Shown: positions 5,179 to 64,000 of the stretch, in pieces
How positions within the stretch are numbered: position 1 is the first letter of the stretch
Layout: each line of letters starts with the position of its first letter
Assembly (NCBI RefSeq): GCF_965363235.1
Contig: NC_134845.1
Span: forward strand, 64,633,261-64,697,260
From: Mytilus galloprovincialis
Taxonomy: Eukaryota > Mollusca > Bivalvia > Mytilida > Mytilidae
Reading direction: 5' to 3'
Length of the DNA: 64,000 nt
Position numbers and translations under genes: made by a program
Notes under the pieces: generated by a model
Told to the model about the DNA's origin: nothing
Database searches by the model: none
What the model saw: only the letters and a program-made list of their open reading frames with translations

Positions 5179-6858
5179 TTAACTCGAGAAGTTTTCTCCT
5201 GTTGTAATGCTTTCTGATTGGCCTCTCCAAAACAAAAGCTTCTTCAAAAGTAAGTTTCTCATCTTTTCACTCATTGCTATATATATCATGAAATTCGACG
5301 CACAAGCCAATACGGTAAACAGCTTCAAAATCTCAATTAACACTTTCAAACCATCCAAAGTAATATCTACACGACCCCAAATGATTGTAAGTATATAGTT
5401 CATCGGCTCACTGTATGGAGTGGAACTTAATGTCAGAGCCGGCAGGTTTAAGAGCGATGACGTCATGTGTTTTATCATGCAATTAGTACAAGATATTAGA
5501 TAATCTTCCAATTGTTCACTCATCCACTTTGTCAAACCTAATTTGTAGAAAAATGAATAACAAAAAGCTACTTTAAAGGTTTTGAATGCGTACGAAATGA
5601 GCGTTTGTACTGGTTCCATGGTTGTATTGCTGATTTTTTCTAACAACTGTTTAAACATTTCCTTTTGATTTAAATTAAGATTATCTTTGTAAACATCGTA
5701 AATCTCCAGGTAAACGTTTTTCATTAATAAGTTGATAACATCTGTTTTTTGTTTGAAGGAAAGTTCTACTACATCAAACAACCCTTTTAAATCACTCTCT
5801 GATATAATACCAGTCATGTTATAGGGACCACACAGATCACTTTCTTCTTCATGCTCTTTTTCAAATATAATCGAATAGTTAAATGTAAGTTCTGTTGATT
5901 TCCTAAACTTCTCTGTTTCATAATCGAAGCATAACAAAGAGTCTCTTTCCATTGTTGTTTTAATTTGGTTCCATACAACATCTTTCTGACCAATGTCTGA
6001 CTTAAAAGTGTTAAATAATGCAGTATTTATACAGACTTTTGGTATTTCGGATAGAAGAAACACGACCATTAAAATTACTGTAAGTACGCATGATTTTTTT
6101 TCTTTTACTGAAATAGTTGACCGCCCCCTTATCCCTTTCCTGATACATAGGCTGGTGATGATGTAGAGTGTGGAAAATAGCATTGTTCCTAAGGCAATGA
6201 ATAATACGCTTGTGGCTAGTATTGGATAATAAGCCAAGACATAGTTCTCCCACATAGACAGTGGTTCGGATATCATACATGTACTATTACCATCCGTTTT
6301 GAATGAGATTACAAACGCCCGCGGGAAATGGAACGCCACAGATATAAAGAAACACACAAAACAAACTATATAAGAACTTTGTGCCTTAATGTTAATATGG
6401 CTCCAAATTGGAAAAATTATAACGCACACTTTTTGTAGTCCTAAAGAAGCTGTTAAGAAAACCGAAACGAAATGGAAAGTATCAACAAGTTGCGTGCTGT
6501 AATAATGCATGACACAAAAAGGATAGTTTAGCGTTACAAATGTTTGGATTTCCTTAAAGCTGTTTGATGAGATTCTATGTATAGGTTCTAATTGATCTGT
6601 CAGATTAGATTCATTATTCGTGCCTCCAATTGAATTGTACAGTAAAGCAAACACGGGCTCTAGTCCGTAAATGCACAAGGCTGTTAAACTATCTGTTATA
6701 GCAAGTGCTTGCAAAAGAATGGCGAACGGCCGCTTCATGCTTTTATCAAAAAGCGCAATAAACACAATCATATTCATAATAATAGCAAGGTAAGAAATTG
6801 CTGGTCCAATTACAATATTTACCACAAATGGAAATCGTGCAGATAAAATGAAAAACAT
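5179..6858 (-). CDS. Intronless rhodopsin-like 7TM receptor with giant extracellular loop 3
   Basis: A 559-residue membrane protein. Predicted helices: TM1 ~12-37, TM2 ~45-72, TM3 ~118-150, TM4 ~163-187, TM5 ~206-238, TM6 ~255-282, TM7 ~503-530. Cys115 (start of TM3) and Cys194 (loop 2) could form the usual class A disulfide. The DRY position reads GLQK and the NPxxY position reads NFMIY, as in divergent invertebrate receptor families. The TM6-TM7 loop is about 220 residues (usually 5-20) with sequons at NYS, NMT and NTT, and ends in a conserved STPYSEPMNYIL block. The ATG aligns with that of the paralogue at 23817, which supports the start. Probable plasma-membrane peptide or chemosensory receptor, ligand unknown. 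Neighbours are repeats only. Confidence 0.9.
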   Translation of the reverse strand: MFFILSARFPFVVNIVIGPAISYLAIIMNMIVFIALFDKSMKRPFAILLQALAITDSLTALCIYGLEPVFALLYNSIGGTNNESNLTDQLEPIHRISSNSFKEIQTFVTLNYPFCVMHYYSTQLVDTFHFVSVFLTASLGLQKVCVIIFPIWSHINIKAQSSYIVCFVCFFISVAFHFPRAFVISFKTDGNSTCMISEPLSMWENYVLAYYPILATSVLFIALGTMLFSTLYIITSLCIRKGIRGRSTISVKEKKSCVLTVILMVVFLLSEIPKVCINTALFNTFKSDIGQKDVVWNQIKTTMERDSLLCFDYETEKFRKSTELTFNYSIIFEKEHEEESDLCGPYNMTGIISESDLKGLFDVVELSFKQKTDVINLLMKNVYLEIYDVYKDNLNLNQKEMFKQLLEKISNTTMEPVQTLISYAFKTFKVAFCYSFFYKLGLTKWMSEQLEDYLISCTNCMIKHMTSSLLNLPALTLSSTPYSEPMNYILTIIWGRVDITLDGLKVLIEILKLFTVLACASNFMIYIAMSEKMRNLLLKKLLFWRGQSESITTGENFSS

Positions 6859-12347: not shown

Positions 12348-13127
12348 ATGGGGACTAACTGTGCACCACTTATTGCGGACCTGTTTTTGTATTGTTATGA
12401 GTTACAATTTATGACAAAAATAAGCAAAGACCCATCGAAACAACATCTAATAAACAAATTCAATAATACTTTTAGATATTTGGATGATATTTTGGCTCTC
12501 AATAATGACGACTTCAGTATGTATATTAATGAAATTTATCCTGTTGAACTTACTTTAAATAAAGCTAATACTAACAATGACCACTGCACTTTTCTCGATC
12601 TTGATATCTTTATCACTAATGGAAAGCTGAATACTAAAATTTATGATAAAAGGGATGATTTTTCATTTCCTATCGTTAATTATCCGTTTTCAGATGGTGA
12701 CGTTCCCTTGTCACCATCGTACGGTGTTTATATATCTCAACTTGTACGATTCGTTCGTGTATGTAACAATGTTTTAGATTTTAACGAGAGAAATTTATGT
12801 ATTACTGAAAAATTATTACACCAGGGTTTTCGATATCACAAACTAGTCAAAACATTTACTAAATTTTATCATCGGTATAAAGACATCATTCGCAAATATA
12901 GCTCAACATGCAGACTTCTAATACTTTCAGGTATTTCACATCCAATTTTTTATGGAAATATTCTTTATAAAGCACAAAGGTGTCAGTATTCACCTCAGAA
13001 ACTTACAAAACCTTTGAATAGACTTATTAAGAAGGGATATAATTACGATATTGTTGTCAAGTCATTAAAGATTGCATATTTTGGCGTTAATATTGAGTCA
13101 CTGATAAGGTCTTTGCATCGGAACTAA
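12348..13127 (+). CDS. Reverse transcriptase C-terminal part of Penelope-like element (partial)
   Basis: The 259-residue frame opens with the RT fingers/palm block MGTNCAPLIADLFLY and has the catalytic FRYLDDILALNN (residues ~42-53), then the conserved KIYDKRDDFSFP and SYGVYISQL blocks and a thumb-like tail with GISHPIFYGN. These match the same blocks of the complete element at 33733-36747 but with many substitutions, so it is a separate lineage. No GIY-YIG domain follows the RT, and the N-terminal part is absent here. Not expected to be functional. Confidence 0.75.
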   Translation: MGTNCAPLIADLFLYCYELQFMTKISKDPSKQHLINKFNNTFRYLDDILALNNDDFSMYINEIYPVELTLNKANTNNDHCTFLDLDIFITNGKLNTKIYDKRDDFSFPIVNYPFSDGDVPLSPSYGVYISQLVRFVRVCNNVLDFNERNLCITEKLLHQGFRYHKLVKTFTKFYHRYKDIIRKYSSTCRLLILSGISHPIFYGNILYKAQRCQYSPQKLTKPLNRLIKKGYNYDIVVKSLKIAYFGVNIESLIRSLHRN

Positions 13128-20085: not shown

Positions 20086-20257
20086 TAAAATTAGAAATAG
20101 GAATACGATAATCACTGAATCAGTGATAATTTATAAGGTTTGTTCTAGTAAAAAGAGGAGGACGTTTAACAAATTTACAGATCACTATTCGGGTATCGAA
20201 TACAATTTGTTTTGGTAAATAGATGCATTAAATACTGCAACACACGCTTGTTTTGTA

Positions 20258-20738
20258 GTCCTGTGGTGTTGAGTTGTCATCTTAATGTTATATTTCACAT
20301 GGCTATAAAAGGGGAGGTTTGAAATGCCACAAAACCAGGTTCAACCCGCCATTTTTTTTCTTTAAAAATGTCCTGTACCAAGTCAGGAATATGGCCATTG
20401 TTATATTATAGTTCGTTTCTGTATGTGTTACATTTTAACGTTGCGTCGTTTGTTTTCTCTTATTTTTGAGTGTAAATTCACATTGCGATAAGACGTGTCA
20501 CGGTACTTGTCTATCCCAACTTCATGTATTTGGTTTTGATGTTATATTTGTTATTCTCGTGGGATTTTGTCTGTTGCTTGGTCCGTTTCTGTGTGTGTTA
20601 CATTGTAGTGTTGTGTCGTTGTTCTCCTCTTATATTCAATGCGTTTCCCTCAGTTTTAGTTTGTTACCCTGATTTTGTTTTTTGTCCATGGATTTATGAG
20701 TTTGAACAGCGGTATACTACTGTTGCCTTTATTTTGTT
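20258..20738 (+). mobile_element. Solo 3' fragment of the Naiad-type Penelope element
   Basis: Collinear with 33185-33650 of the complete element: 'ccacaaaaccaggttcaacc', 'tgtaccaagtcaggaatatgg', 'gataagacgtgtcacggtac', 'cagcggtatactactgttgcc'. Moderately diverged, so older than the tandem copy. It ends at the same 'tgcctttattt' terminus and lies beside a copy of the repeat into which the complete element also inserted. Confidence 0.8.
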
Positions 20739-23816: not shown

Positions 23817-25325
23817 ATGTTGTTTATTCTATACTCACGGAGTCCATTTTGGCTTAATATCGTTGCTGGACCAACTGTGTCGTATATATCTATAGTGATG
23901 AACATAATTATTTTTTGTGTTTTACTTGATCGAAAAATTAAAACGCCTACAACAGTTTTGATGCAGGGACTGGCTTTAGCCGACAGCCTTACCGCGTTAT
24001 GTACCTATGGTTTCGAGCCATTATTTGTACCTTTTTATGATAAGATTGGATATTATGTTAACTTCAATGATACAAGTGAAGCGACGGAAAACCTTTTCCT
24101 GGAACTAACAGAGTTCGTTTGCCTGAAGTTTCCACTGTGCTGGCTTCACTTTGTAGTAACTAACTTGACAGACACATTCCACCTTGCGTCCATATTGATA
24201 ACAACATCTCTTGGAGTACAGAAACTTATGGCTGTGATGTGTCCAATATGGAGCAGGACCAAAGTTACCAATAGAAAGGCGGGAATAGTTTGCGGCGTCT
24301 GTGTTGTAGGCTCAATGGTAATGAGTATCCCCAGATTGTTTGTTGTTGGTTTTAAATCCGGCAAAGAGGATATCTGTTTGGTGTCAGTTGCGCACGCTAA
24401 CATGCAGAAATACATCCTGACATTTTATCCAATTCTTTTTACCGTTGTTTTATCCACTGCAGTAGTAACTATGTTGGTTTCTACATTTTATATCATAGTT
24501 ATACTGTGTCGCCGAAAACATGTTCGAGGTCATGCATCAGTTTCAAGGTCTGAAAAGAAATCTTGCATACTCATTTTGAGTGTGATGGTCGTATTTTTAC
24601 TCACGGAAGTACCAAGATTATACATCAATACAACCCTTTTCTTCACTTACAGTGCTAACCTGGAAAATAACGCAAACATGGCCGTCAAAAAGATTGCGAC
24701 AGAATCACACAAAACTATAATGTCAAACTTTAACAGGGATCATGATATACCACAGTATTCTAGCTCAACATTGAATGAGAGCTGTATAAGAGCTATCTTA
24801 ACGCCGTTGTCTGATCGGGGATTTTACGATCGTCCCATTCAACGTGTTTCGAGGTACGCTAACGTCATGTTTAAGGACAAATATCAGTTAAATTTACTAA
24901 ACACCATGCGTTATCTCTTTTTTCGTTTGTTTCACGAAATTCGAAAAAGTACAGCGATGATGTTATGCAGTTGGTATGATAAAAAAAGAAAAATTGACAA
25001 AGACTTGTTCGAACATTTAGTAGATTATGTATTTGATGAAGGGGTGTTGTTCAGTGATAATGGACCTTTCCTTTTACTCGGATCTACACCGTACAGTGAA
25101 CCCATGAACTACATACTCAACATTATCTGGGTAAATTGGGGCATAAGTTTAAACAATTTAAAACTTTTTATTGAGATTTTAAAACTTGCAATGATTGTGG
25201 GATGTTCATCCAACTTCCTCATATACATAATCATGAGCAAGAAGTTACGTCAGGCTGTATCTAGGAAACTGAAAAGCTGTCGAGACACACATGAGAGACG
25301 AGTAGAAGAGATCGAAATGAACTGA
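23817..25325 (+). CDS. Intronless rhodopsin-like 7TM receptor, paralogue of the gene at 5179
   Basis: A 502-residue receptor that aligns with receptor 1 from the first methionine. Shared motifs: ADSLTALC in TM2, LTDTFH before TM3, SLG-QK in place of DRY, EKKSC before TM6, and the terminal STPYSEPMNYIL-NIIW block followed by TM7 with SNFLIYI replacing NPxxY. Helices: TM1 ~13-37, TM2 ~46-70, TM3 ~110-143, TM4 ~156-178, TM5 ~199-231, TM6 ~248-274, TM7 ~448-473. Extracellular loop 3 is about 170 residues and almost unalignable with that of receptor 1 except for its last ~25 residues. Basic C-tail. Probable cell-surface peptide or chemosensory receptor. The orientation is opposite to receptor 1. 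Confidence 0.92.
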   Translation: MLFILYSRSPFWLNIVAGPTVSYISIVMNIIIFCVLLDRKIKTPTTVLMQGLALADSLTALCTYGFEPLFVPFYDKIGYYVNFNDTSEATENLFLELTEFVCLKFPLCWLHFVVTNLTDTFHLASILITTSLGVQKLMAVMCPIWSRTKVTNRKAGIVCGVCVVGSMVMSIPRLFVVGFKSGKEDICLVSVAHANMQKYILTFYPILFTVVLSTAVVTMLVSTFYIIVILCRRKHVRGHASVSRSEKKSCILILSVMVVFLLTEVPRLYINTTLFFTYSANLENNANMAVKKIATESHKTIMSNFNRDHDIPQYSSSTLNESCIRAILTPLSDRGFYDRPIQRVSRYANVMFKDKYQLNLLNTMRYLFFRLFHEIRKSTAMMLCSWYDKKRKIDKDLFEHLVDYVFDEGVLFSDNGPFLLLGSTPYSEPMNYILNIIWVNWGISLNNLKLFIEILKLAMIVGCSSNFLIYIIMSKKLRQAVSRKLKSCRDTHERRVEEIEMN

Positions 25326-25663: not shown

Positions 25664-26545
25664 GAGCAGAATAAAAAAGGAAAAAACCAATTTTCCTCTT
25701 TTTTCACTCTTAATTCTGACAAGTGCAATTAGAGGCCAAATTCGGACCAGAACGTAATAAATTTATTCTATAACCCATGTATTAGAGAAAAAATCATGAA
25801 AAACAAAGACAATTCTGTTATATTAGTATTTATTTGATACATTTCAAAATAAATTTATACTGAAATCTACACTTAGCTGTCCATTTTCAGTCAACTCTCT
25901 GTAAAGGATTCAACATAGAATAAATTTATTCTAAATGCATGGTGCTTTCGGTATATGATCATTTCTAAAATAAATTTATTTTATAGAGCCATAATATCTA
26001 TTATTAGTTCGAGAAAATCATAGAATACATTTATTATACATTCAATGTCATTTATGATTATAACAATATTTAAAATAAATTTATTTTGAAAGTCCAATAA
26101 TCTGTATGGTGAGGCTGAGACACACAATACATTTATTCTACATTCAATACGATTTCGGATTATAATAAAATATAAAATAAATTTATTTTGAAGTAAAGTT
26201 ATCTGTATGGTGAGGCTGTGACACAGAATAAATTAATTCTATTTGAATGCGATTTCGGATTATAATAAAATATAAAATAAATTTATTTTGACGTAAAGTT
26301 ATCTGTATGGTGAGGCTATGACACAGAATAAATTTATTCTATTTGAATGCGATTTCGGATTATAATAAAATATCAAATAAATTTATTTTGAAGTAAAGTA
26401 ATCTGTATGGTGAGGCTGTGACACAGAATAAATTAATTCTAGTTTCAATGCGATTTCGGATTATAATAAAATATAAAATAAATTTATTTTGAGTTAAGTT
26501 ATCTGTATGGTGAGGCTGAGACACAGAATAAATTTATTCTACATT
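25664..26545. repeat. 100-bp tandem array with AATAAATTTATT palindromes, copy 1
   Basis: Units begin with 'tctgtatggtgaggct' at 26101, 26202, 26302, 26402 and 26502, so the period is 100-101 bp. Each unit holds two palindromes, GAATAAATTTATTC and AAAATAAATTTATTTT, about 50 bp apart; about 15 full or near matches are seen. The left end (25664-25735) has the hairpin GGAAAA-AACCAA-TTTTCC. The whole block recurs inverted at 42090-42774. Minisatellite cores of this kind occur in non-autonomous Helentron-like elements; that link is inference. Confidence 0.85.
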
Positions 26546-26742
26546 CAATATGAATTTTGTTCTATATAAAAATAATCTTAAAAGTATTACATGATACAAA
26601 ATTAAAATAATTTAAAAGAAATTCCAACGGTCTTATTTATTACAGACAAACTGAGAGACAACTTGAAGCTTCGTTATAATGCATCTGGTACTAATCGTTT
26701 AGTAATCTGATCTTTTAGTGACATGCAGATCTGTAGCTGGAA

Positions 26743-31955: not shown

Positions 31956-33658
31956 ACATACCCTCTGCCCCTTCGTATGGTGTTTACATATCACAATTGA
32001 TACGTTATTCACGTGCTTGTTCACACTATACGGACTTCATATACAGGAGTGTGCTCCTTACGCAGAAACTGCTCCAACAAAGTTATGAGGAGGACAGATT
32101 AAAATTGACACTCCGTAAATTTTATGGACACCATCACGATTTGGTGGATCCATACGATGTTTCGTTGACCAAACTAGCTAAGGACATTTTTACCACATGG
32201 TAGATTGTGTTTTGTCATAATGTCGTCTAATCTTTTAATTACCAAACGTGACTTATTCCCGATTGTGACTGTTTTGCCGAGTGTGAACTCACATTACTAT
32301 AAGACGTGGTACGGTACTTATACATCCCAAATTCATGTATTTAGTTTAAATGTTTAATGTTATATTTGTTATTCTCATCGGATTTTGTCAAATGTGTTGA
32401 CGTCTTTTCTATTATATTTCTGTGTTATGGTAAAGAAAATTAATCACCGCCTTCATTTATCAGATTTGATTTCGTTCAAAGTAATCAGTACGATATTTTA
32501 CGTTTGAAGTTAGATTCATAACAAACCTGACATAGTTTTATAATATAGTTAATTGCTACCTCAGTTTTATATTAATAAGAATTAAAATGTGCTTTGTTAT
32601 TAAATGCAATATCAGTATTTAGTTCAAATATATAATCTTAAATTAATCCTAATTCTAATGACGTCATTTTTTCGTCATTTTTCATTTTTTGATGCTCTGT
32701 TTTACTAATTCTAATGACGTCATTTTTTCGTCATTTTTCAGTTTCAAATAGGACGTCACTTGGCGTAGAGGTTTAAACGTATTCGGATGTGTCTACTTTT
32801 GTGTTTCAAATGTCTGGTTATGTAAATGTATTTCAGTTGTTTCCTGTAATTAGTTAATACTTCAGCTTTATCATGTACATCTTTTGAATATTCATTTTAT
32901 TAAATTTACTGTTTGCAAAAGTATAAATTACTCTAAATTATAGGGATTTTCTGGTAACTTAACGGAAAACCCTTGCCGTTTTTGGCACAACCTTTTTGAT
33001 CTTTTGGTCCTCGATGCTGTTCAACTTTGTACTCGTTTCGGCTTTCAAACTTTTGTATCTGTGCGTCACACATAGGTCTTGTGTGGACAAAATACACTTC
33101 TGGCGTATTAAAATTTTAAACTTGTTGCCTTTTGTTGGCTGTTGTTCGTGTGATTCTTTGTCAATTGTGTTCTCCAATTTATTTATATTGTAGTCCTGTG
33201 TTGTCATTTTGATGTTATATTTCATATGGCCATAAAAGTGCGAGGTTTGGCATGCCACAAAACCAGGTTCAACCCACCATTTTTTCCTTTAAAAATGCCC
33301 TGTACCAAGTCAGGAATATGGTCATTGTTATATTATAGTTCGTTTCTGTGTGTATTACATTATAACGTTGTGTCGTTTGTTTTCTCTTATTTTTGAGTGT
33401 AAATTCACATTGCGATAAGACGTGTCACGGTACTTGTCTATCCCAAATTCATGTATTTGGTTTTGATGTTATATATATATGTTATATTTGTTATTCTCGT
33501 GGGATTTTGTCTATATGTGTTACATTTTAGTGTTATGTCGTTGTTCTCCTCTTATATTTAATGCGTTTCCCTCGGTTTTAGTTTGTTATCCCGATTTTGT
33601 TTTTTGTCCATGGATTTATGAGTTTTGAACAGCGGTATACTACTGTTGCCTTTATTTA
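31956..33658 (+). repeat. Upstream pseudo-LTR of the Naiad element
   Basis: Starts in the codons for residue ~923 of the ORF, includes the 3' end of the coding region (to the stop at 32201-32203) and the whole 3' UTR, and ends 'tgcctttattta'. Its position directly before the full unit makes it the natural place for a promoter. Confidence 0.9.
32659..32722 (+). promoter_or_regulatory. Pair of TGACGTCA (CRE-type) sites in upstream pseudo-LTR
   Basis: Perfect TGACGTCA palindromes at 32659-32666 and 32715-32722 lie in two copies of a 30-bp block ('taatgacgtcattttttcgt'). TGACGTCA is the consensus for CREB/ATF factors. Role in driving the element is inference. Confidence 0.5.
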
Positions 33659-33660
33659 TC

Positions 33661-33732
33661 ACCACCGGACCGGAATCTCTGCTGGTGGACAATCTGTCCC
33701 CGAGGATTCTACCAGTCCGGTAGCCTAACAGC
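33661..33732 (+). other. GC-rich structured 5' leader of the complete unit
   Basis: Directly after the junction, ACCGGAC (33664-33670) can pair with GTCCGGT (33715-33721); GAATC pairs with GATTC inside; GGAC-aatct-GTCC forms a tip; CTGGT can also pair with ACCAG across this. It ends 11 bp before the ATG. No hammerhead core (CTGATGA/GAAA) is present. All three frames are open over most of it. Confidence 0.55.
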
Positions 33733-36700
33733 ATGAAAACTAGTAGAACAAAAAATATTATACTGGATGATACGACGCCCAGGATAAAAAGGTGTCAATC
33801 GGCTGTTGTCAAGGACACAACAACACCGATTTTATCAGGTGTCCCAAGGATCATCTTAAATGATGTTATGAAAATGACACACGTGCAGTCTTCTGAATCC
33901 TCATTATACTATAAAAATTCAGACAAGTTTGAATATATTCGGCCGTGTACTGTTCAACTTTCAGATATTTTAGATTTCAATGACAACCATCAATATTGCT
34001 CTATTTCCAAATGTAACCGTAAAAATTGTAAAACCTGTGATATACTTATAACTGATACCCACTTTCAAAGTAATTTAACCACCAAAAATTACAATACACA
34101 TAGTCATGAGGATTTGAATTGCACTGCTTCCAATATTGTATACGGTATTGAATGTACTCTTTGTGGATTGATCTACGTCGGGGAAACTCGACAAAGACTC
34201 AATTTTAGGATGAATGATCATCGGTCTAATGTAAATGATCCTAATAACAACAAATTTCTCTATAAACATTTCAATCAGCCCGACCATTCTTTTGTTTCAA
34301 TGAAAGTCCGGATTATAGAGAAAATATATCATCCAACAAATGACCCCATATTGAGTACACCATATCGTTTACAAAGAGAAGACTTTTGGATAAGAGAGTT
34401 GGGAACAGCCATTCCCTATGGATGCAATGACAAAATTGATGGTGTAGGTATTTTGTCTAGTCCCAGGTGTAGTACTGTCAATACATTACAATTGTTTAAT
34501 ACTTCTGCTCGACGAAATAGAAGTCATGGTCACAGAAAATATATACCACCTGCTGTACACACCGTGACAATTGATAGTCTATTAACGTCTGTTCAAAAAC
34601 CTTTAGGAATTCATCTTATTAGAACTAAATTATACTCCATTCCATTGTCAAAACTTTCTTTACTATTTCAAGATGCCCAAAATACTTCCGTTACTGATTC
34701 TCGTTCTGTTTTGTATAGATTAGTTGCAATTATCATGGACATTGCTAACCATAGACTATTCAAACCCGTATCGACTACATCCAATAGTGAGGAAAAACGT
34801 TATTTTTTTAAGGTAGAATTCGCCAATAAAGGTTTAGATGCTATAAATATTAGCAATATTTTCCATCAAAAATCTGTACAAAAAACTATACCTGATTACT
34901 TCAAAAATAAAGCTACACCTGTTATTTCTTATACTTACACCAAGTCTATTGCATCCAAGATTTTCAACCACAAGAGAGTTTTAGAGGCTTTTAACCTCAA
35001 AGATACAAAATCCAAGCCTCCGGATTGCTCATGTGCATCGTCACAATACAATTACAGTCCAGCTGGTCATATTATTACTGGAGACCTTGGCATCGTTACC
35101 AATGAACAACTAAGAGAGTTGTTAGCCAAGGGACCAAAATATAGAATCCCCCAGCCCATCAACTGGAAAAAGAATTTCAAGTTACTGATGGATGCAGTTG
35201 AGGACTATGCAAGAAAATGGGTAAAGCGCGAACCAGACGAACCAGAACTGGATACTTTGTCTGAATGGATCAAAGCTATTCGATCATGCATTCAGAGGCG
35301 CATACAAAAACTACGATGTAATATGAGTACTAAAGTTTCTAACCCTTTCAAGAATCCGGAGGTTGTGGATGCTTTATCCTCTTTGCATGACAAATATGTC
35401 GTTGTTCCAGCAGATAAAGCCTCCAATAATATTGTCTTCATATGTAAAAAACATTATTTGCAATGTCTCACTACAGAGCTTGGAATTGATAAAACTACTG
35501 GTAATCCTACATATTCTTTAACATCATTTACCAAGGACGAAATTTTACAAAATCATAAATCTGTCCTTCTTTCTTTTGGTATCAACATCAAAGAAAACGA
35601 AGAAAACTTGCCTTCATTATACTGGATACCCAAATTACACAAAACTCCATATAAAGAACGATACATAGCTGGGTCTTCAAAATGTTCAACCAAACATCTT
35701 TCTAAAGTACTGACTACTATTCTTTCGACAGTTAAAGATGGGCTTCAAAAATATTGTGAGGAGATATATTCTACCAGTGGTGTTAACCAGATGTGGATTC
35801 TCAAAAATTCGAAAGATCTACTGCTTAACCTTCAATCACAATCTTTGCAATTTTGCAGCAACATAAAAACTTTTGATTTTTCTACGCTATATACTACTAT
35901 TCCCCATGCTCAGTTGAAAGATCGACTACACCATCTCATAAAACAGAGCTTTTTCTATAAAAATGGAAATCGTAGATACAAATTTCTTGTTTTGGGTTAC
36001 AATAATTCATATTTTGTGAAAAATCACACTGAATCTCCCAGAAAATATACAGAAGATGATATTATCAAAATGCTGGACTTTTTGATCGACAATATATTTG
36101 TTGAGTTTGGAGGATTTATATTTCAACAGACAGTCGGTATTCCAATGGGTACTAATTGTGCACCCCTGCTGGCTGATTTGTTTTTGTACTCGTATGAAGC
36201 AGAATTCATTCAGAACCTTCTAAAAGACAAAAAGAAAAAGCACCTTGCGAAATTCTTTAATTTTACTTTCCGATATATTGATGATGTTCTATCATTGAAT
36301 AACCCATATTTCAGCCAATACTTACATCTCATATATCCAAGTGAACTTGAAATTAAGGATACCACTGATACTAGAAGGACTGCTTCATACCTTGATCTTT
36401 TCCTCAATATTGACGTAGATGGACGACTTCACACGAAAATCTATGATAAACGGGACGATTTCAACTTCCCAATTATCAATTTCCCATTTCTTAGCAGTAA
36501 CATACCCTCTGCCCCTTCGTATGGTGTTTACATATCACAATTGATACGTTATTCACGTGCTTGTTCACACTATACGGACTTCATATACAGGAGTGTGCTC
36601 CTTACGCAGAAACTGCTCCAACAAAGTTATGAGGAGGACAGATTAAAATTGACACTCCGTAAATTTTATGGACACCATCACGATTTGGTGGATCCATACG

Positions 36701-36747
36701 ATGTTTCGTTGACCAAACTAGCTAAGGACATTTTTACCACATGGTAG
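33733..36747 (+). CDS. Penelope-like (Naiad) polyprotein: GIY-YIG endonuclease + reverse transcriptase
   Basis: A 1004-residue ORF. Residues ~85-102 are cysteine-rich. The GIY-YIG nuclease spans ~134-232: VYGI at 136-139, CTLC at 141-144 inside the core, YVG at 148-150, conserved Arg near 155-159, His179 and His185 as likely remaining zinc ligands, and a Glu near 216-222 for metal. The nuclease is N-terminal, unlike classical Penelope where it is C-terminal. A linker (~260-540) carries the CSCAS...GHIITGDLGI block. RT: VVPADKASNN at ~557-566, WIPKLHKTP at 631-639, catalytic Asp715 in FDFSTLYTT, IPMGTNCAP at 803-811, YIDD at 848-851. Its job is copying the element's RNA at a nicked target. The ATG follows the structured leader. 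Confidence 0.95.
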   Translation: MKTSRTKNIILDDTTPRIKRCQSAVVKDTTTPILSGVPRIILNDVMKMTHVQSSESSLYYKNSDKFEYIRPCTVQLSDILDFNDNHQYCSISKCNRKNCKTCDILITDTHFQSNLTTKNYNTHSHEDLNCTASNIVYGIECTLCGLIYVGETRQRLNFRMNDHRSNVNDPNNNKFLYKHFNQPDHSFVSMKVRIIEKIYHPTNDPILSTPYRLQREDFWIRELGTAIPYGCNDKIDGVGILSSPRCSTVNTLQLFNTSARRNRSHGHRKYIPPAVHTVTIDSLLTSVQKPLGIHLIRTKLYSIPLSKLSLLFQDAQNTSVTDSRSVLYRLVAIIMDIANHRLFKPVSTTSNSEEKRYFFKVEFANKGLDAINISNIFHQKSVQKTIPDYFKNKATPVISYTYTKSIASKIFNHKRVLEAFNLKDTKSKPPDCSCASSQYNYSPAGHIITGDLGIVTNEQLRELLAKGPKYRIPQPINWKKNFKLLMDAVEDYARKWVKREPDEPELDTLSEWIKAIRSCIQRRIQKLRCNMSTKVSNPFKNPEVVDALSSLHDKYVVVPADKASNNIVFICKKHYLQCLTTELGIDKTTGNPTYSLTSFTKDEILQNHKSVLLSFGINIKENEENLPSLYWIPKLHKTPYKERYIAGSSKCSTKHLSKVLTTILSTVKDGLQKYCEEIYSTSGVNQMWILKNSKDLLLNLQSQSLQFCSNIKTFDFSTLYTTIPHAQLKDRLHHLIKQSFFYKNGNRRYKFLVLGYNNSYFVKNHTESPRKYTEDDIIKMLDFLIDNIFVEFGGFIFQQTVGIPMGTNCAPLLADLFLYSYEAEFIQNLLKDKKKKHLAKFFNFTFRYIDDVLSLNNPYFSQYLHLIYPSELEIKDTTDTRRTASYLDLFLNIDVDGRLHTKIYDKRDDFNFPIINFPFLSSNIPSAPSYGVYISQLIRYSRACSHYTDFIYRSVLLTQKLLQQSYEEDRLKLTLRKFYGHHHDLVDPYDVSLTKLAKDIFTTW

Positions 36748-38202
36748 ATTGTGTTTTGTCATAATGTCGTCTAATCTTTTAATTACCAAACGTGACTTAT
36801 TCCCGATTGTGACTGTTTTGCCGAGTGTGAACTCACATTACTATAAGACGTGGTACGGTACTTATACATCCCAAATTCATGTATTTAGTTTAAATGTTTA
36901 ATGTTATATTTGTTATTCTCATCGGATTTTGTCAAATGTGTTGACGTCTTTTCTATTATATTTCTGTGTTATGGTAAAGAAAATTAATCACCGCCTTCAT
37001 TTATCAGATTTGATTTCGTTCAAAGTAATCAGTACGATATTTTACGTTTGAAGTTAGATTCATAACAAACCTGACATAGTTTTATAATATAGTTAATTGC
37101 TACCTCAGTTTTATATTAATAAGAATTAAAATGTGCTTTGTTATTAAATGCAATATCAGTATTTAGTTCAAATATATAATCTTAAATTAATCCTAATTCT
37201 AATGACGTCATTTTTTCGTCATTTTTCATTTTTTGATGCTCTGTTTTACTAATTCTAATGACGTCATTTTTTCGTCATTTTTCAGTTTCAAATAGGACGT
37301 CACTTGGCGTAGAGGTTTAAACGTATTCGGATGTGTCTACTTTTGTGTTTCAAATGTCTGGTTATGTAAATGTATTTCAGTTGTTTCCTGTAATTAGTTA
37401 ATACTTCAGCTTTATCATGTACATCTTTTGAATATTCATTTTATTAAATTTACTGTTTGCAAAAGTATAAATTACTCTAAATTATAGGGATTTTCTGGTA
37501 ACTTAACGGAAAACCCTTGCCGTTTTTGGCACAACCTTTTTGATCTTTTGGTCCTCGATGCTGTTCAACTTTGTACTCGTTTCGGCTTTCAAACTTTTGT
37601 ATCTGTGCGTCACACATAGGTCTTGTGTGGACAAAATACACTTCTGGCGTATTAAAATTTTAAACTTGTTGCCTTTTGTTGGCTGTTGTTCGTGTGATTC
37701 TTTGTCAATTGTGTTCTCCAATTTATTTATATTGTAGTCCTGTGTTGTCATTTTGATGTTATATTTCATATGGCCATAAAAGTGCGAGGTTTGGCATGCC
37801 ACAAAACCAGGTTCAACCCACCATTTTTTCCTTTAAAAATGCCCTGTACCAAGTCAGGAATATGGTCATTGTTATATTATAGTTCGTTTCTGTGTGTATT
37901 ACATTATAACGTTGTGTCGTTTGTTTTCTCTTATTTTTGAGTGTAAATTCACATTGCGATAAGACGTGTCACGGTACTTGTCTATCCCAAATTCATGTAT
38001 TTGGTTTTGATGTTATATATATATGTTATATTTGTTATTCTCGTGGGATTTTGTCTATATGTGTTACATTTTAGTGTTATGTCGTTGTTCTCCTCTTATA
38101 TTTAATGCGTTTCCCTCGGTTTTAGTTTGTTATCCCGATTTTGTTTTTTGTCCATGGATTTATGAGTTTTGAACAGCGGTATACTACTGTTGCCTTTATT
38201 TA
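36500..38202 (+). repeat. Downstream pseudo-LTR of the Naiad element
   Basis: Second copy of 31956-33658, as the natural 3' end of the complete unit (last ~82 codons plus 3' UTR). Contains the same CRE-type pair at 37203-37210 and 37259-37266. Confidence 0.92.
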
Positions 38203-42089: not shown

Positions 42090-42774
42090 TATTTTTATAA
42101 CCAGAATAAATTTATTCTGTGTCTCAACCTTAACATAATTACTGTACTATCAAAATACATTTATTTTATATATCATAAAAAATCACATTGAACATAGAAT
42201 AAATTTATTCTGTGTCTCAACCTCACCATACAGATTACATTACTTTCAAAATAAATTTATTTTATATATTATTATAATCATAAATGACATTAAATGTGAA
42301 ATAAATTTATTCTGTATCACAGCCTCGCCATACAGATTACTGGACTTTCAAAATAAATTTATTTTAAATATTGTTATAATCATAAATGACATTAAATGTA
42401 GAATAAATTTATTCTATGATTTTCTCTAACTGATAATAATATCAAGGCTCTTTATAATAAATTTATTTTATAAATGATTAAATACAGAAAGCACCATGCA
42501 TTTAGAATAAATTTATTCTAAGTTGCATCATTTACGGAGAGTTAAATGAAAATGGACAGTAAAGTGTAGAATTCAGTATAAATTTATTTTGAAATGTATC
42601 AAATAAATACTAATATAACAGAATTGTCTTTGTTTTTCATGATTTTTACTCAAATACATTGGTTATAGAATAAATTTATTACGTTCTGGTCCTATTTTTG
42701 CCTCTAATTGCACTTGTCAGAAATTAGAGTGAAAAAAGAGGAAAATTGGTTTTTTCCTTTTTTATTCTGCTCTC
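42090..42774. repeat. 100-bp tandem array with AATAAATTTATT palindromes, copy 2 (inverted)
   Basis: Complement of 25664-26545: 'ctcaccatacagattac' (42223) and 'ctcgccatacagattac' (42324) give the 101-bp period; about 11 palindromes; right end 'gaggaaaattggttttttcc...attctgctctc' matches the complement of 25664-25700. The two copies lie about 16 kb apart in opposite orientation. Confidence 0.85.
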
Positions 42775-51717: not shown

Positions 51718-52462
51718 ATGTTTATAATTAAACCCATTTCAAAGGCTATTTACTTTTGGAGTATCAAAAATTCGTTGGAAGTACTTGATAAATTGCATGC
51801 TTTTATTGGTGATTTTGAATCTGTTCAAAGTTTTGATTTTTCTACCCTATATACCACTTTGCCTCATATTCTTATTAAGAAAAACTTCACACACCTAATT
51901 AAATGGGCATTTAAAAAGTCAGAATGCGAATATATATGTTCAAACTCTAAAAGGTCATTTTTTAGTAATAATAAACAAAAGAACTATGTCAATTGGACCT
52001 GCTTTGGTCTGCTTGCGGACCTGTTTCTGTATTGTTATGAGTTACAATTTATGACTTAAATCAGCAAAGACCCATCGAAAAAAAATCTGATAGTTTCTTT
52101 TGTTATCTTTTCTGACATCGGACTCGGACTTCTTTCAAATTGAGTTTTACTGTGCGTATTGCTGTGTATTTGTTTTTCCTACATTGGCTAGAGGTATAGA
52201 GGAGGGTTGAGATCTAAAAAAACATGGTTAACCCTGCCGCATTTTTGCGCCTGTCCAAAGTCAGGAGCCTCTGGCCTTTGTTAGTCTTGTATGATTTTTA
52301 ATTTTAATTCATTTATATATTTCAAAGTTTAGTATGACGTCCATTTTAACTGTACTACCACACATGTGTTGAAGACCTATTGGTGACCTTCGGCTGTTTT
52401 CTGCTCTTTGGTCGGTTTGTTGTCTCTTTGACACATTCCCCATTTCCAATCTCAATTTTATA
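51718..52462 (+). mobile_element. Penelope-like element relic, second lineage
   Basis: A short RT part with SFDFSTLYTTLPH and LADLFLYCYELQFMT, matching the lineage at 12348, then the shared 3' region ('gcgcctgtccaaagtcagga', 'ttgtctctttgacacattcccc') ending at about 52462. Clearly broken and reduced in several places. Confidence 0.75.
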
Positions 52463-61185: not shown

Positions 61186-62133
61186 TTAAGCATTTATAAT
61201 GATTAAATTAAATACGTGCCTTCTCGGCCAGTCTTCAAAAAATGAGTTCATTTCACTATGAAATCTACCCTTTACTCTATCTTTGAATTCACTTAAAAAC
61301 AAATTCACATTTTTTACACCCTGATATAACCAAATATCCTGGAACCCATACATGTATAATATGTCTCTAATTCGACAGGCCCAGTTATATTTGTCGTTTG
61401 GTTTTTTATTACATCTCTCGAGCATTTCTTCATAACAACATTTAAGAATACAGTTATCAGTACATAATAGCTTTAACCAATATTTTAACATTCGACAATA
61501 TCTTTCTATAAACATAGGGTATCGTCCCAACTCACAATAAACCATATAATTAACAGTAGATGCTTTCACCTTTAATATACGTTTTAAGAATTTCATTTGA
61601 ACTTGTTCGATATCATCACATTTGTGATTTCCCCAAACTTCACAGCTATAATTCAAAATACTTGCTACATACGTGTCAAACAATGACAGCATAGTTTCAA
61701 AATTAAAACAGTCATCCTGCAATTTACTATACAGGCTAAATAATGCTTTACGACCTTGGTTTGCTAATGATTTTTGAGTGTATGTAAAATAACCATTACA
61801 TCTAAATAAAATACCCAGATATACAAATTCATCACACATATCTATTGAATTTCCATTTAAATACCATCTCTCATTTGCTTTAACTTGTCCTCTGTTTCTG
61901 AATACAACAATTTTTGTTTTTAAACAATTAATAGAATAGACATTTAAACAATTAATCATCTTTTGTAAATCTTCAATATTTTCACTAAACAATACTGTGT
62001 CATCTGCATACATAAGTAAATACAGGTTCAACATTTTTAACTCATAAGGTTGACATCCTTGACTAATAAGCTCTATTTCCATGTCATTTACGTACAATGA
62101 ATATAAAAATGGGGATAATGATTCCCCCTGCAT
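61186..62133 (-). CDS. LINE reverse transcriptase, C-terminal half
   Basis: 315 residues starting MQGESLSPFLYSLYVND (RT block 4), then the catalytic MYADDTVLF (YADD at 42-45), KTKIVVFRNRG, FVYLGILF, ILNYSCEVWG and YCELGRYPMF, the usual order of a LINE palm-to-thumb and post-RT region. The start methionine is simply the first after the frame change and is not a true start. The coding frame is open to TAA at 61186. Confidence 0.85.
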   Translation of the reverse strand: MQGESLSPFLYSLYVNDMEIELISQGCQPYELKMLNLYLLMYADDTVLFSENIEDLQKMINCLNVYSINCLKTKIVVFRNRGQVKANERWYLNGNSIDMCDEFVYLGILFRCNGYFTYTQKSLANQGRKALFSLYSKLQDDCFNFETMLSLFDTYVASILNYSCEVWGNHKCDDIEQVQMKFLKRILKVKASTVNYMVYCELGRYPMFIERYCRMLKYWLKLLCTDNCILKCCYEEMLERCNKKPNDKYNWACRIRDILYMYGFQDIWLYQGVKNVNLFLSEFKDRVKGRFHSEMNSFFEDWPRRHVFNLIIINA

Positions 62134-62180
62134 TAAACCAACATTACTATTAAAAAAATTTGAGAAGCTACCATCAAATT

Positions 62181-64000
62181 TTACACAACATTTATAAGTT
62201 TTGAATAGATAGATTTTAATACATTTAATAGTTTACCAGTAACACCTAATCTGATAAGTCGTAACCATAACTTCATATGTGTGACACTGTCAAACGCCGT
62301 TTTATAGTCAACAAAACAACAATAAAATCTTTTACCAGATCTCAGAGATTTTGAAATTAAAGAATTGAGAGCGAAGATGGCGTCAGTAGTACCATAACCG
62401 GGTCGGAAGCCAAACTGGGCATCTGTTAGTACATCATGGTTTCTACTCCATTTAGTAAGTCGAGCGTTGATGAGAGTTGTAAACAGCTTTCCAATATGGG
62501 ACACAAGAGATATTCCACGAAAGTTTCCAGGCTGATTAAAGTCACCTTTTTTGAATACAGGGATAATAATACTTTTTACCCACAATTCAGGGAAGTCACC
62601 ATTTGTAAGAATACAGTTAAATATTTTACACAACACAGGTTTAATGAAATTTTTACTCATAATAATGTACTCGTTCATCATATTATCGTATCCTGTAGAT
62701 TTGTCTCGTTTTAACTTTTTAATACCATCATCAAGTTCTTTTTCCGTAAATGGAGAATCAAGCTCATCGAACACAGTACCTGTATTTTCGCCTGGTAAAT
62801 CTTGCGGATGTATATCTGGGTTTGATGTTAATTTCTTAAAATGTTCTTCAAACTGCTCTAAAGTTATATTCGGATGTACAACTTTTTTACGTTTCTTAAA
62901 TTTCCTATAGAATTGCTTCGGATTAGTCCTTTTTAACGAAGCCATCATGTTACCTCTTTGATTCTTATATTGTCTTTTCAGTTTATTTTCAAGCCACTTA
63001 TATTTCTGTTTTGCTAAATTAAGACTGAGTCTATTTTCATTGGACCTGTACTTATTAAAAGTTCCTAGTGCCTGTTGGTAAGCATTATATAAGTTTTTAC
63101 ATTCATCTGTAAACCAGGGTTTATCCGTTGTAGTTTTAAATTGTTTATAATCATCAGTACATATATCACAGTATTTTTTATGTCTAATTTCTGACTTTGT
63201 AAACTGTTCAAAAATATCAGACAAAAGTTTATTTAATTCATCCACGCAGATATTGGTGTCACTATTTTCATCTATATTGGTCAACATATCCTCAAACTGC
63301 TGGGCGTTAGCCAACAAACTCTCTCTGACGTCATCTTCGCACTCGTTTCTCCATTTAAAAGTATTATAAACATGTTTACTACATGAGCATTGATCTTTGA
63401 TCAAGTTTACAGTATTGTCCCTAAGGTAAAATTGAACTGACAATGGAGCGTGACATGAAAAACTAGTAAACATTCCTACGTGAAAACTCTTTACCATCTT
63501 AAACATATTCTCATATAATAATAAATAGTCAATTACACTACAACCATTTTTATTATTAAAAGTTATTTTACCACTATCTTCGCCAAAACGTCCGTTACAG
63601 ATGCGTAACCCGGAGGATTTACATAATTGTAAAATTCTTTGTCCGAAACTGTTGGGCGCTTTTGTATCCTCGGAATGTCTCTGTACAAAATCTTGCCTAT
63701 CATTTTCATAATCAATAAATGAGATATTGTCTAGTAATAATGGATCTAAGAAATCGTTCAATAAATAGTCCGGTTTCAAACCAACACGACCATTTAGGTC
63801 TCCTAAAACAGCTACTGTACCAATATTATAAAGAGATTCTATTTGTTCTTGCAAAATGTCAAATACATCACAGTTATATTTACGATAAAACACATTTTTA
63901 ACAGGAGGCATATATATAGAGCATATGTATAAATCTAAATTATCAAGTGTTATACTTTTATCAATTTTAAACCAAATCATACAATCCACACAACATTTCA
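62181..64000 (-). CDS. LINE endonuclease and N-terminal half of reverse transcriptase (partial)
   Basis: Open from the window edge; first methionine at 63989, but coding continues upstream. APE-like endonuclease motifs: LGDLNGRVG at ~62-70, SVIDYLL at 151-157, FSCHAPLS at 177-184 (the His of the catalytic SDHxPL box is kept; Asp reads Cys). RT motifs: SIIIPVFKKGD at ~473-483, NFRGISLVSHIGK at 489-501, AQFGFRPGYGTTDAI at 524-538, FVDYKTAFDSV at 559-569 with the first catalytic Asp at 561. The N-terminal third of the endonuclease lies beyond the window. Confidence 0.9.
   Translation of the reverse strand, partial: KCCVDCMIWFKIDKSITLDNLDLYICSIYMPPVKNVFYRKYNCDVFDILQEQIESLYNIGTVAVLGDLNGRVGLKPDYLLNDFLDPLLLDNISFIDYENDRQDFVQRHSEDTKAPNSFGQRILQLCKSSGLRICNGRFGEDSGKITFNNKNGCSVIDYLLLYENMFKMVKSFHVGMFTSFSCHAPLSVQFYLRDNTVNLIKDQCSCSKHVYNTFKWRNECEDDVRESLLANAQQFEDMLTNIDENSDTNICVDELNKLLSDIFEQFTKSEIRHKKYCDICTDDYKQFKTTTDKPWFTDECKNLYNAYQQALGTFNKYRSNENRLSLNLAKQKYKWLENKLKRQYKNQRGNMMASLKRTNPKQFYRKFKKRKKVVHPNITLEQFEEHFKKLTSNPDIHPQDLPGENTGTVFDELDSPFTEKELDDGIKKLKRDKSTGYDNMMNEYIIMSKNFIKPVLCKIFNCILTNGDFPELWVKSIIIPVFKKGDFNQPGNFRGISLVSHIGKLFTTLINARLTKWSRNHDVLTDAQFGFRPGYGTTDAIFALNSLISKSLRSGKRFYCCFVDYKTAFDSVTHMKLWLRLIRLGVTGKLLNVLKSIYSKLINVV

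Follow-up and report, generated by a model that had tools for sequence, protein, structure and literature searches.

An intact Naiad-type Penelope-like retrotransposon of Mytilus galloprovincialis, with a proposed start of copying at its repeat junction

Introduction

The locus described here raises the question of whether Penelope-like elements (PLEs) that carry their nuclease ahead of the reverse transcriptase (RT) begin copying internally, like Poseidon, but without a hammerhead. The window analysed, a stretch of 64,000 nucleotides, contains what we read, with a probability of about 0.85, as an intact, recently active and autonomous Naiad-type Penelope-like retrotransposon, for which a start of copying at the repeat junction is proposed. 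In the literature searched, which did not cover the main Naiad paper, no biochemistry of Naiad transposition was found. The genome supplies a young intact family in which at least 16 frames are full-length and the exact 3' end recurs in thousands of copies. Its miniatures are natural deletion derivatives and may confine the cis-acting RNA to about 106 nt. A single protein and a short RNA would then suffice to test the question directly.

Organisation of the element

The following features were identified in the window:

31956 to 33658, + strand: upstream 5'-truncated copy (pseudo-LTR), with the last part of the ORF and the 3'UTR, head-to-tail with the full copy
33659 to 38202, + strand: full-length copy, equal to a single 4544-nt period (direct-repeat spacing 4544), 3' end ..GCCTTTATTTA
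33660 to 33732, + strand: 5'UTR, 73 nt
33733 to 36747, + strand: ORF of 1004 aa, endonuclease then RT; at least 16 intact genomic copies
34135 to 34404, + strand: GIY-YIG endonuclease domain (PF01541), aa 135-224; CTLC pair at aa 141-144
35026 to 35034, + strand: linker CxC motif, CSC, aa 432-434, the sole C.C in the protein
35854 to 36291, + strand: RT core, aa 708-853, with FDFSTLY, GIPMGTN and YIDD (sub-cut-off RVT_1 match plus motifs)
36748 to 38202, + strand: 3'UTR containing two sub-repeats that have diverged (83%), at 36823-36942 and at 37939-38065

Translation of the ORF gave one complete frame without an internal stop, and a Pfam search of the full protein placed the GIY-YIG domain ahead of the RT, both as described in the first-pass annotation of this DNA. 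The PF01541 match had an E value of 1.1e-4 and a score of 22.8 bits (cut-off 22.6 bits), with E 1.5e-5 when the N-terminal 256 aa were searched alone. The CTLC pair was found to lie between the GIY-like and YIG-like segments, again as had been stated. The further claim that all catalytic motifs are present was borne out for FDFSTLY, GIPMGTN and YIDD (residues 714, 802 and 848), which we take to be RT motifs, although the RVT_1 match itself remained under its cut-off (E 0.0064). The protein ends shortly after the RT. A single-sequence AlphaFold2 model of the ORF had a mean pLDDT of 31 and was not used, and a search of PDB sequences with the ORF returned a single, irrelevant match (E 1).

Direct-repeat comparison showed positions 31956-33658 to be 100% identical to 36500-38202, with 0 differences over 1703 bp. 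The interval originally drawn, 33659-38202, therefore delimits one copy correctly, being exactly one direct-repeat period in length, but falls short of the entire insertion, which spans 31956-38202 and consists of the truncated copy joined head-to-tail to the full one. This pseudo-LTR tandem layout is shared by other members of the family, as the 3' end of another copy directly precedes 14 of the 16 full-length copies listed. Naiads have an insertion bias for microsatellites; no tandem repeats were reported at the two outer ends of the window copy.

Classification

In Naiad PLEs the GIY-YIG nuclease lies N-terminal to the RT and carries a CCHH motif, while the RT is telomerase-like and has an IFD insertion. 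A CxC between nuclease and RT presumably marks nuclease-first PLEs. Because of its domain order and its CxC linker, the element is, on its sequence, a Naiad-type PLE, an already-known kind. Naiads are not known to carry a canonical hammerhead; here, no Rfam ribozyme match was obtained, and neither the element nor the sequence spanning the junction showed a hammerhead core pattern. With the clade as reportedly described by Craig et al. in 2021, the element shares the N-terminal nuclease, the CxC linker, the pseudo-LTR tandems, the absence of a hammerhead and a very high copy number in invertebrates; the predicted junction hairpins and the tandem miniatures found here are reportedly not part of that description.

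The annotation had already called a nuclease-first PLE, and domain order, CxC, intact frame and many near-identical copies agree with this. It had also argued for the Naiad/Chlamys clade from the nuclease cysteines. The pair exists, as CTLC, but makes a weak argument: a Cys/His motif is reportedly shared by Penelope-type nucleases and absent from that of Chlamys. The pair would then count against Chlamys, yet be expected in classical Penelope as well, and it is probably not diagnostic.

Membership of another PLE lineage, whether Chlamys, an undescribed lineage or a canonical one whose C-terminal nuclease has been lost, would be compatible with the RT motifs and pseudo-LTRs, which are common to PLEs, yet is highly improbable. 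The nuclease precedes the RT rather than lying C-terminal to it as in canonical Penelope and Poseidon, the protein has little sequence beyond the RT, and the cysteine pair is present, whereas the Chlamys nuclease reportedly lacks this motif. A further argument is the likeness of a second family in the same genome to the clam selenoprotein Naiads.

Genomic copies and age

The genome search recovered 16 full-length stop-free frames among the 49 matches listed, so that the near-identical copies which the annotation had proposed to look for were indeed found. So many intact frames are far more than chance would give. All 16 have the same length (3012 nt plus stop) and they form two subfamilies, with dS to the window copy of 0.003-0.016 for subfamily A (L001-L007) and of 0.097-0.113 for subfamily B (L008-L016), the latter with dN/dS of 0.06-0.10. 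The exact 3'-terminal 27-mer occurs in 7009 genomic copies and the exact 5'UTR-start 26-mer in 65, with 0 matches for the backward-sequence control of either. These near-identical frames, low dN/dS values and unequal counts indicate that the family is young, that its protein is under selection and that its insertions are mostly 5'-truncated. The suggestion that the family may be active accords with the lack of any difference between the flanking repeats, which supports recent activity well.

Between subfamilies A and B the 3'UTRs were found to differ far more than the dS of the ORF predicts. Exchange of 3'UTRs between the subfamilies is therefore likely, and the 3'UTR cannot serve as a neutral yardstick.

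The 3' end and the repeat junction

Folding predicted three hairpins at the ends of the copies:

33630 to 33648, + strand: predicted 8-bp hairpin at the 3' terminus of the upstream copy (fold of 33627-33732)
33664 to 33721, + strand: long predicted hairpin within the 73-nt 5'UTR, a few nt past the junction (z about -2.7)
38174 to 38192, + strand: predicted 3'-terminal hairpin of the full copy, directly before the 3' end

The 3' ends converge on a single spot, ..CCTTTATTT(A), between two predicted hairpins. This exact end was seen in all 46 ends read, most of them from loci picked with a query or probe reaching it. The base after the 27-mer is A in 5063 of the 7009 copies, and there is almost no tail of the Poseidon type. 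Beyond this first A, the base pattern fits internal initiation weakly; the excess of T at +2 and C at +3 was judged too small and too context-dependent to count as proof of it.

The fold of 33627-33732 has a predicted energy of -34.0 kcal/mol (z -2.65). The 5'UTR hairpin, like the whole junction block, is identical in all six aligned copies of subfamily B (of nine). That the junction is identical between subfamilies is weaker evidence of selection than it might seem, because in the ORF control 90-267 of 2909 windows of 106 nt were equally identical. Likewise, the 5'UTR hairpin is the most stable among 118 windows, but its status as sole structural outlier was rejected, since at least 10 windows have a more extreme z. 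The many copies hint that the copying machinery recognises a short RNA structure at the repeat junction.

Miniature derivatives

Eight of the 34 loci with an exact 5'UTR start hold miniatures, in which only the 5' region and the final 31-113 nt are retained. These often form tandems, five of the eight loci having at least two units. Unit size ranges from 106 to 268 bp. Every complete unit read retains both the 5'UTR hairpin region and the 3' end, the loci having been found through the 5'UTR. An origin by splicing was rejected, as none of the eight joints tested had a GT..AG, even when shifted by up to 4 nt in either direction (L066 was left out, and the split of L074 fits poorly). A simple search mostly found no target-site duplications, the exceptions being 15 bp at L063, 8 bp with an offset at L048 and 5 bp at L074; no general length is claimed.

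The retained parts of the miniatures bear on how copying starts. In an R2-like start, the RT would recognise the 3'-terminal hairpin and begin at or near the RNA end, the 5'UTR hairpin would serve translation or packaging, and the miniatures would be plain by-products of internal deletion. This account is doubtful, if a serious contender: a predicted hairpin lies directly before the exact end, the 3' end is strongly conserved across the 7009 27-mers and the T and C excess is small, but the complete miniature units, in loci drawn from the 5'UTR search, all keep the 5'UTR hairpin region besides the 3' end, and the Poseidon precedent is internal (PMC11167929).

The tandem arrays could also reflect a new self-cleaving ribozyme in the junction block. 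Multimeric RNAs would then be cleaved at UUUAU^CACC, the products would close into circles, and reverse transcription rolling round these would yield tandem miniatures, as proposed for hammerhead retrozymes. Tandem units of the sizes given, the strong predicted fold in the 5'UTR and the C14 array, with four whole units and a 15-bp target duplication, would suit such a ribozyme, as would the similar short tandems of retrozymes (PMC7229834). It is improbable all the same, given the lack of an Rfam ribozyme match or hammerhead core; moreover, four other arrays begin off a unit boundary, unequal exchange can also lengthen arrays, and the Poseidon ribozyme was dispensable for insertion in vitro (PMC11167929).

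Proposed mechanism and comparison with known systems

We favour internal initiation at the junction of 3' end and 5'UTR. Transcripts would begin in the upstream pseudo-LTR and extend across the ORF, and the protein would bind them at the hairpins on either side of the junction. The GIY-YIG domain would nick A/T-rich DNA, and target-primed synthesis by the RT would begin at CCUUUAUUU(A), a short way upstream of the 5'UTR hairpin. Synthesis would usually stop early, giving 5' truncation, with occasional template switching producing tandems and internally deleted miniatures. A bolder and rather unlikely extension is that the junction block of ~106 nt (the last 33 nt plus the 5'UTR, with CCUUUAUUUAUCACC lying between its two hairpins) acts in cis as a new type of RNA, either a self-cleaving ribozyme or a platform for RT initiation, which would replace the hammerhead in hammerhead-less PLEs, alone suffice for mobilisation and spawn retrozyme-like tandem miniatures.

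Three further known systems were compared. The Poseidon element of Anolis (PAc) has a C-terminal nuclease and a hammerhead, and internal initiation has been proposed for it (PMC11167929). It shares with the present element tandem copies and an RT start that maps to the genomic 3' end. In PAc, however, the start lies inside the ORF, ~111-118 nt into it, with an optional tail of 30-40 bp in genomic copies (PMC11167929), whereas the element here ends at the junction itself. Metazoan non-LTR retrozymes have units of 150-450 bp, a type I hammerhead and circular RNAs (PMC7229834). Like the miniatures they are short tandem units for which PLE enzymes probably provide mobility (PMC7229834). The miniatures, known here from DNA, showed no hammerhead and are, unlike retrozymes, deletion derivatives of the PLE itself. 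In Adineta vaga, the Penelope element Pen3a carried an unrelated host gene between two pLTRs, and pLTR sequences were considered enough in cis to allow mobilisation in trans (PMC3846280), a likeness to the present case; the product there includes a host gene, while here it is a minimal end-to-end unit.

Related sequences

Among viral contigs, no relatives were confirmed. In a search of genome contigs, the MAG of a Bathymodiolus symbiont yielded three relatives, of 41-52% identity; these are probably host-mussel DNA and were left out of any tree because their open frames are short. The second family in the mussel genome contains in-frame TGAs and presumably resembles the clam selenoprotein Naiads; the genome thus apparently harbours a cysteine-type Naiad and a TGA-containing family of selenocysteine type.

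Structure and coding capacity of the window element

A single frame was found to encode the protein of family 1, a Naiad-type Penelope-like element (PLE) of the window:

33733-36747, +, ORF of 1004 aa in a single frame

Pfam placed a GIY-YIG nuclease at aa 135-224, barely over the cut-off when the whole protein was searched and with an E value of 1.5e-5 when the N-terminal part was searched alone, and a reverse transcriptase (RT) at aa 708-853 that scored below the cut-off. The first-pass annotation had described a complete frame with GIY-YIG ahead of an RT bearing its catalytic motifs; this order was confirmed, and the RT-type motifs FDFSTLY (aa 714), GIPMGTN (aa 802) and YIDD (aa 848) were all identified. 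The cysteine motif CTLC lies at aa 141-144, while CSC at aa 432 is the sole C.C of the protein.

The interval 33659-38202, initially taken as the element, corresponds to exactly one 4544-nt repeat period, but the insertion begins upstream, with a 5'-truncated copy starting at 31956 that is joined head-to-tail to the full copy and shows 0 differences from it across the common 1703 bp. Pseudo-LTRs and partial tandems of this type are on record for PLEs (PMC8969392, PMC3846280). The domain order, CxC motif, pseudo-LTRs and lack of a hammerhead suggest assignment to Naiad, and family 1, so placed, adds a member to an already known group.

Copies of family 1 across the genome

Protein search of the 1.385-Gb assembly containing the window (46 of 59815 first-look candidates scored) identified at least 49 matches to the family 1 protein. 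Sixteen of these were full-length and stop-free, all with frames of 3012 nt plus stop, so that the further close copies sought for the element are present (at least 16). Compared to the window copy, subfamily A (L001-L007) showed a dS of 0.003-0.016, and subfamily B (L008-L016) a dS of 0.097-0.113 with a dN of 0.006-0.011 (dN/dS 0.06-0.10). Exact matches to the 3'-end 27-mer in the genome numbered 7009 (backward control 0), and those to the opening 26 nt of the 5'UTR numbered 65 (93 at up to 3 mismatches). These copy counts, dS and dN/dS values and the excess of the 27-mer over the 26-mer mark family 1 as young, with selection acting on its protein and with the 5' end missing from most insertions. 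The tandem layout recurs, with the 3' end of another copy directly upstream of 14 of the 16 full-length copies (exceptions L008 and L011).

Relatives with 41-52% identity to family 1 (L086-L088; JACCHT010000011.1, JACCHT010000009.1) come from a MAG catalogued as a Bathymodiolus symbiont and are apparently DNA of the mussel host included in a bacterial assembly.

The 3' end of family 1

All 46 non-tandem ends examined stop at CCTTTATTT, followed by A in 39, these ends having been located by a probe for that very end (up to 3 substitutions), with 30 of the loci behind the survey picked by a query extending to it; at least three (L002, L046, L079) continue into another piece of element. Among 30 loci picked by ORF alone, 13 non-tandem ends lay at the CCTTTATTT spot and L005 was tandem, the rest being unreached or unmatched. 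The 7009 genomic 27-mers were followed by A in 5063 cases, AT in 2308 and ATC in 473. With backgrounds in the window of 0.256, 0.369 and 0.128 for the respective steps, A alone is in large excess; the T excess after the first A vanishes with a background taken after ATTTA (0.443).

No poly(A) was seen at family 1 3' ends. There is next to no run-on into a following 5'UTR, L069 being the single locus with 54 nt of 5'UTR past the junction (where the 3' end of one copy meets the 5'UTR of the next) before other DNA; Penelope and Poseidon, in contrast, have an optional 30-40 bp tail according to PMC11167929. At window 20253-20734 a diverged relative of the element (87%) is present as a short 3'-end piece that also terminates in CCTTTATTT.

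Miniature derivatives

Joining places within 10 kb reduced the 65 exact 5'UTR starts to 34 loci, eight of which carry miniature units, with the first 73-197 nt fused to the terminal 31-113 nt (ending at CCTTTATTT). Breakpoints vary and microhomology at the joints is 0-3 nt. By chromosome-size contig, these are:

C14 (L063), four 106-bp units, both array ends on unit boundaries, 15-bp target duplication
C5, 25 units repeating every 199 bp
C3, two units of 268 bp plus part of another
C4, one 147-bp unit, with a related broken unit 2 kb off in opposite orientation
C2, three units of ~137 bp, the first one cut
C7, one unit of ~159 bp
C9, one unit of ~204 bp
C11, two 168-bp units plus 24 nt of another

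Of the remaining 26 loci, 24 contain ORF sequence, L067 has lost a larger internal segment and L069 breaks off after its 54 nt. A gapped-pattern search added three loci with miniature-type joints (C2, C5, C6), and a second returned the C14 array only. We read these units as probable natural deletion derivatives of family 1. The junction block (33627-33732, 106 nt) is present in every complete unit examined, the loci having been located via its 5'UTR half. Arrays of a single deletion type could have arisen when multimeric or circular RNA was reverse-transcribed, a route proposed for retrozymes (PMC7229834), or through later expansion at the DNA level. In the literature searched, which did not cover the main Naiad paper, nothing was found on hairpins at the junction or on miniatures derived from nuclease-first PLEs, and priority is not claimed.

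Predicted junction RNA and proposed initiation of synthesis

The predicted fold around the junction (-34.0 kcal/mol, z -2.65) has two hairpins, one of 8 bp followed by a long one, separated by the linker CCUUUAUUUAUCACC. The 5'UTR window had the highest stability among 118 element windows, with a more extreme z in at least 10 windows. Six of the nine subfamily B copies were aligned, and block 33627-33732 is unchanged in all six, as part of a 159-163 nt stretch without differences; identity is 48-78% over 3'UTR stretches and ~97% over the ORF. The unchanged block is moderate evidence of selection, because 90-267 of 2909 ORF windows of 106 nt are likewise identical and the subfamilies may have exchanged their 3'UTRs.

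The family 1 protein may recognise the junction hairpins in RNA, with the GIY-YIG domain nicking A/T-rich DNA and synthesis beginning just upstream of the 5'UTR hairpin. A precedent for such an internal start is Poseidon, whose protein begins synthesis at an internal stem-loop and depends on some RNA downstream of the initiation site (PMC11167929). An R2-like start at the RNA end is judged the less probable course. A ribozyme at the junction is improbable: an Rfam search of the element and junction matched no family, and a search for the hammerhead core pattern found none. Both alternatives to the internal start concern mechanism only, leaving the identity of the element unaffected.

A second PLE family in the window

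Family 2 is represented by:

12348-13127, PLE of family 2
51718-52059, fragment, probably of family 2

At least 147 genome matches were identified (147 of 49729 candidates scored). In one genomic copy (L082), the N-terminal nuclease frame contains three in-frame stops, all TGA, and is lost further on. These TGAs lie at or near cysteine places of family 1 (e.g. CHAKK-TGA-LTC and YLLT-TGA-NKPGCGIQYVGET), for which reason family 2 looks like a selenoprotein Naiad. Craig et al. are said to have described selenoprotein Naiads in clams in 2021.

Three of four window copies finish in TTTA, and a hairpin is predicted shortly inside the 5' end (z -1.1 in one window placing, -2.9 in another). A 10-copy array of 123 bp, derived from the family 2 5'UTR, was found at G000:C5:2885018-2886150 (L084, L085), within one short copy bearing a normal 3' end. 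The array units are without that end, so the 5'UTR alone is repeated, whereas family 1 miniatures keep the 3' end too.

Other features of the window

Frames for two rhodopsin-type 7TM receptors (PF00001), both intronless, were identified at 5179-6858 (-) and 23817-25325 (+); they look akin by eye, with a common STPYSEPMNYIL near the C terminus. A repeat of ~100 bp forms two diverged arrays, at 26022-26549 and 42103-42415 in opposite orientations, which centre on AATAAATTTATT palindromes. A non-LTR retrotransposon remnant occupies 61186-63989 (-), with RVT_1, a weak Exo_endo_phos_2 and a frame in two pieces.
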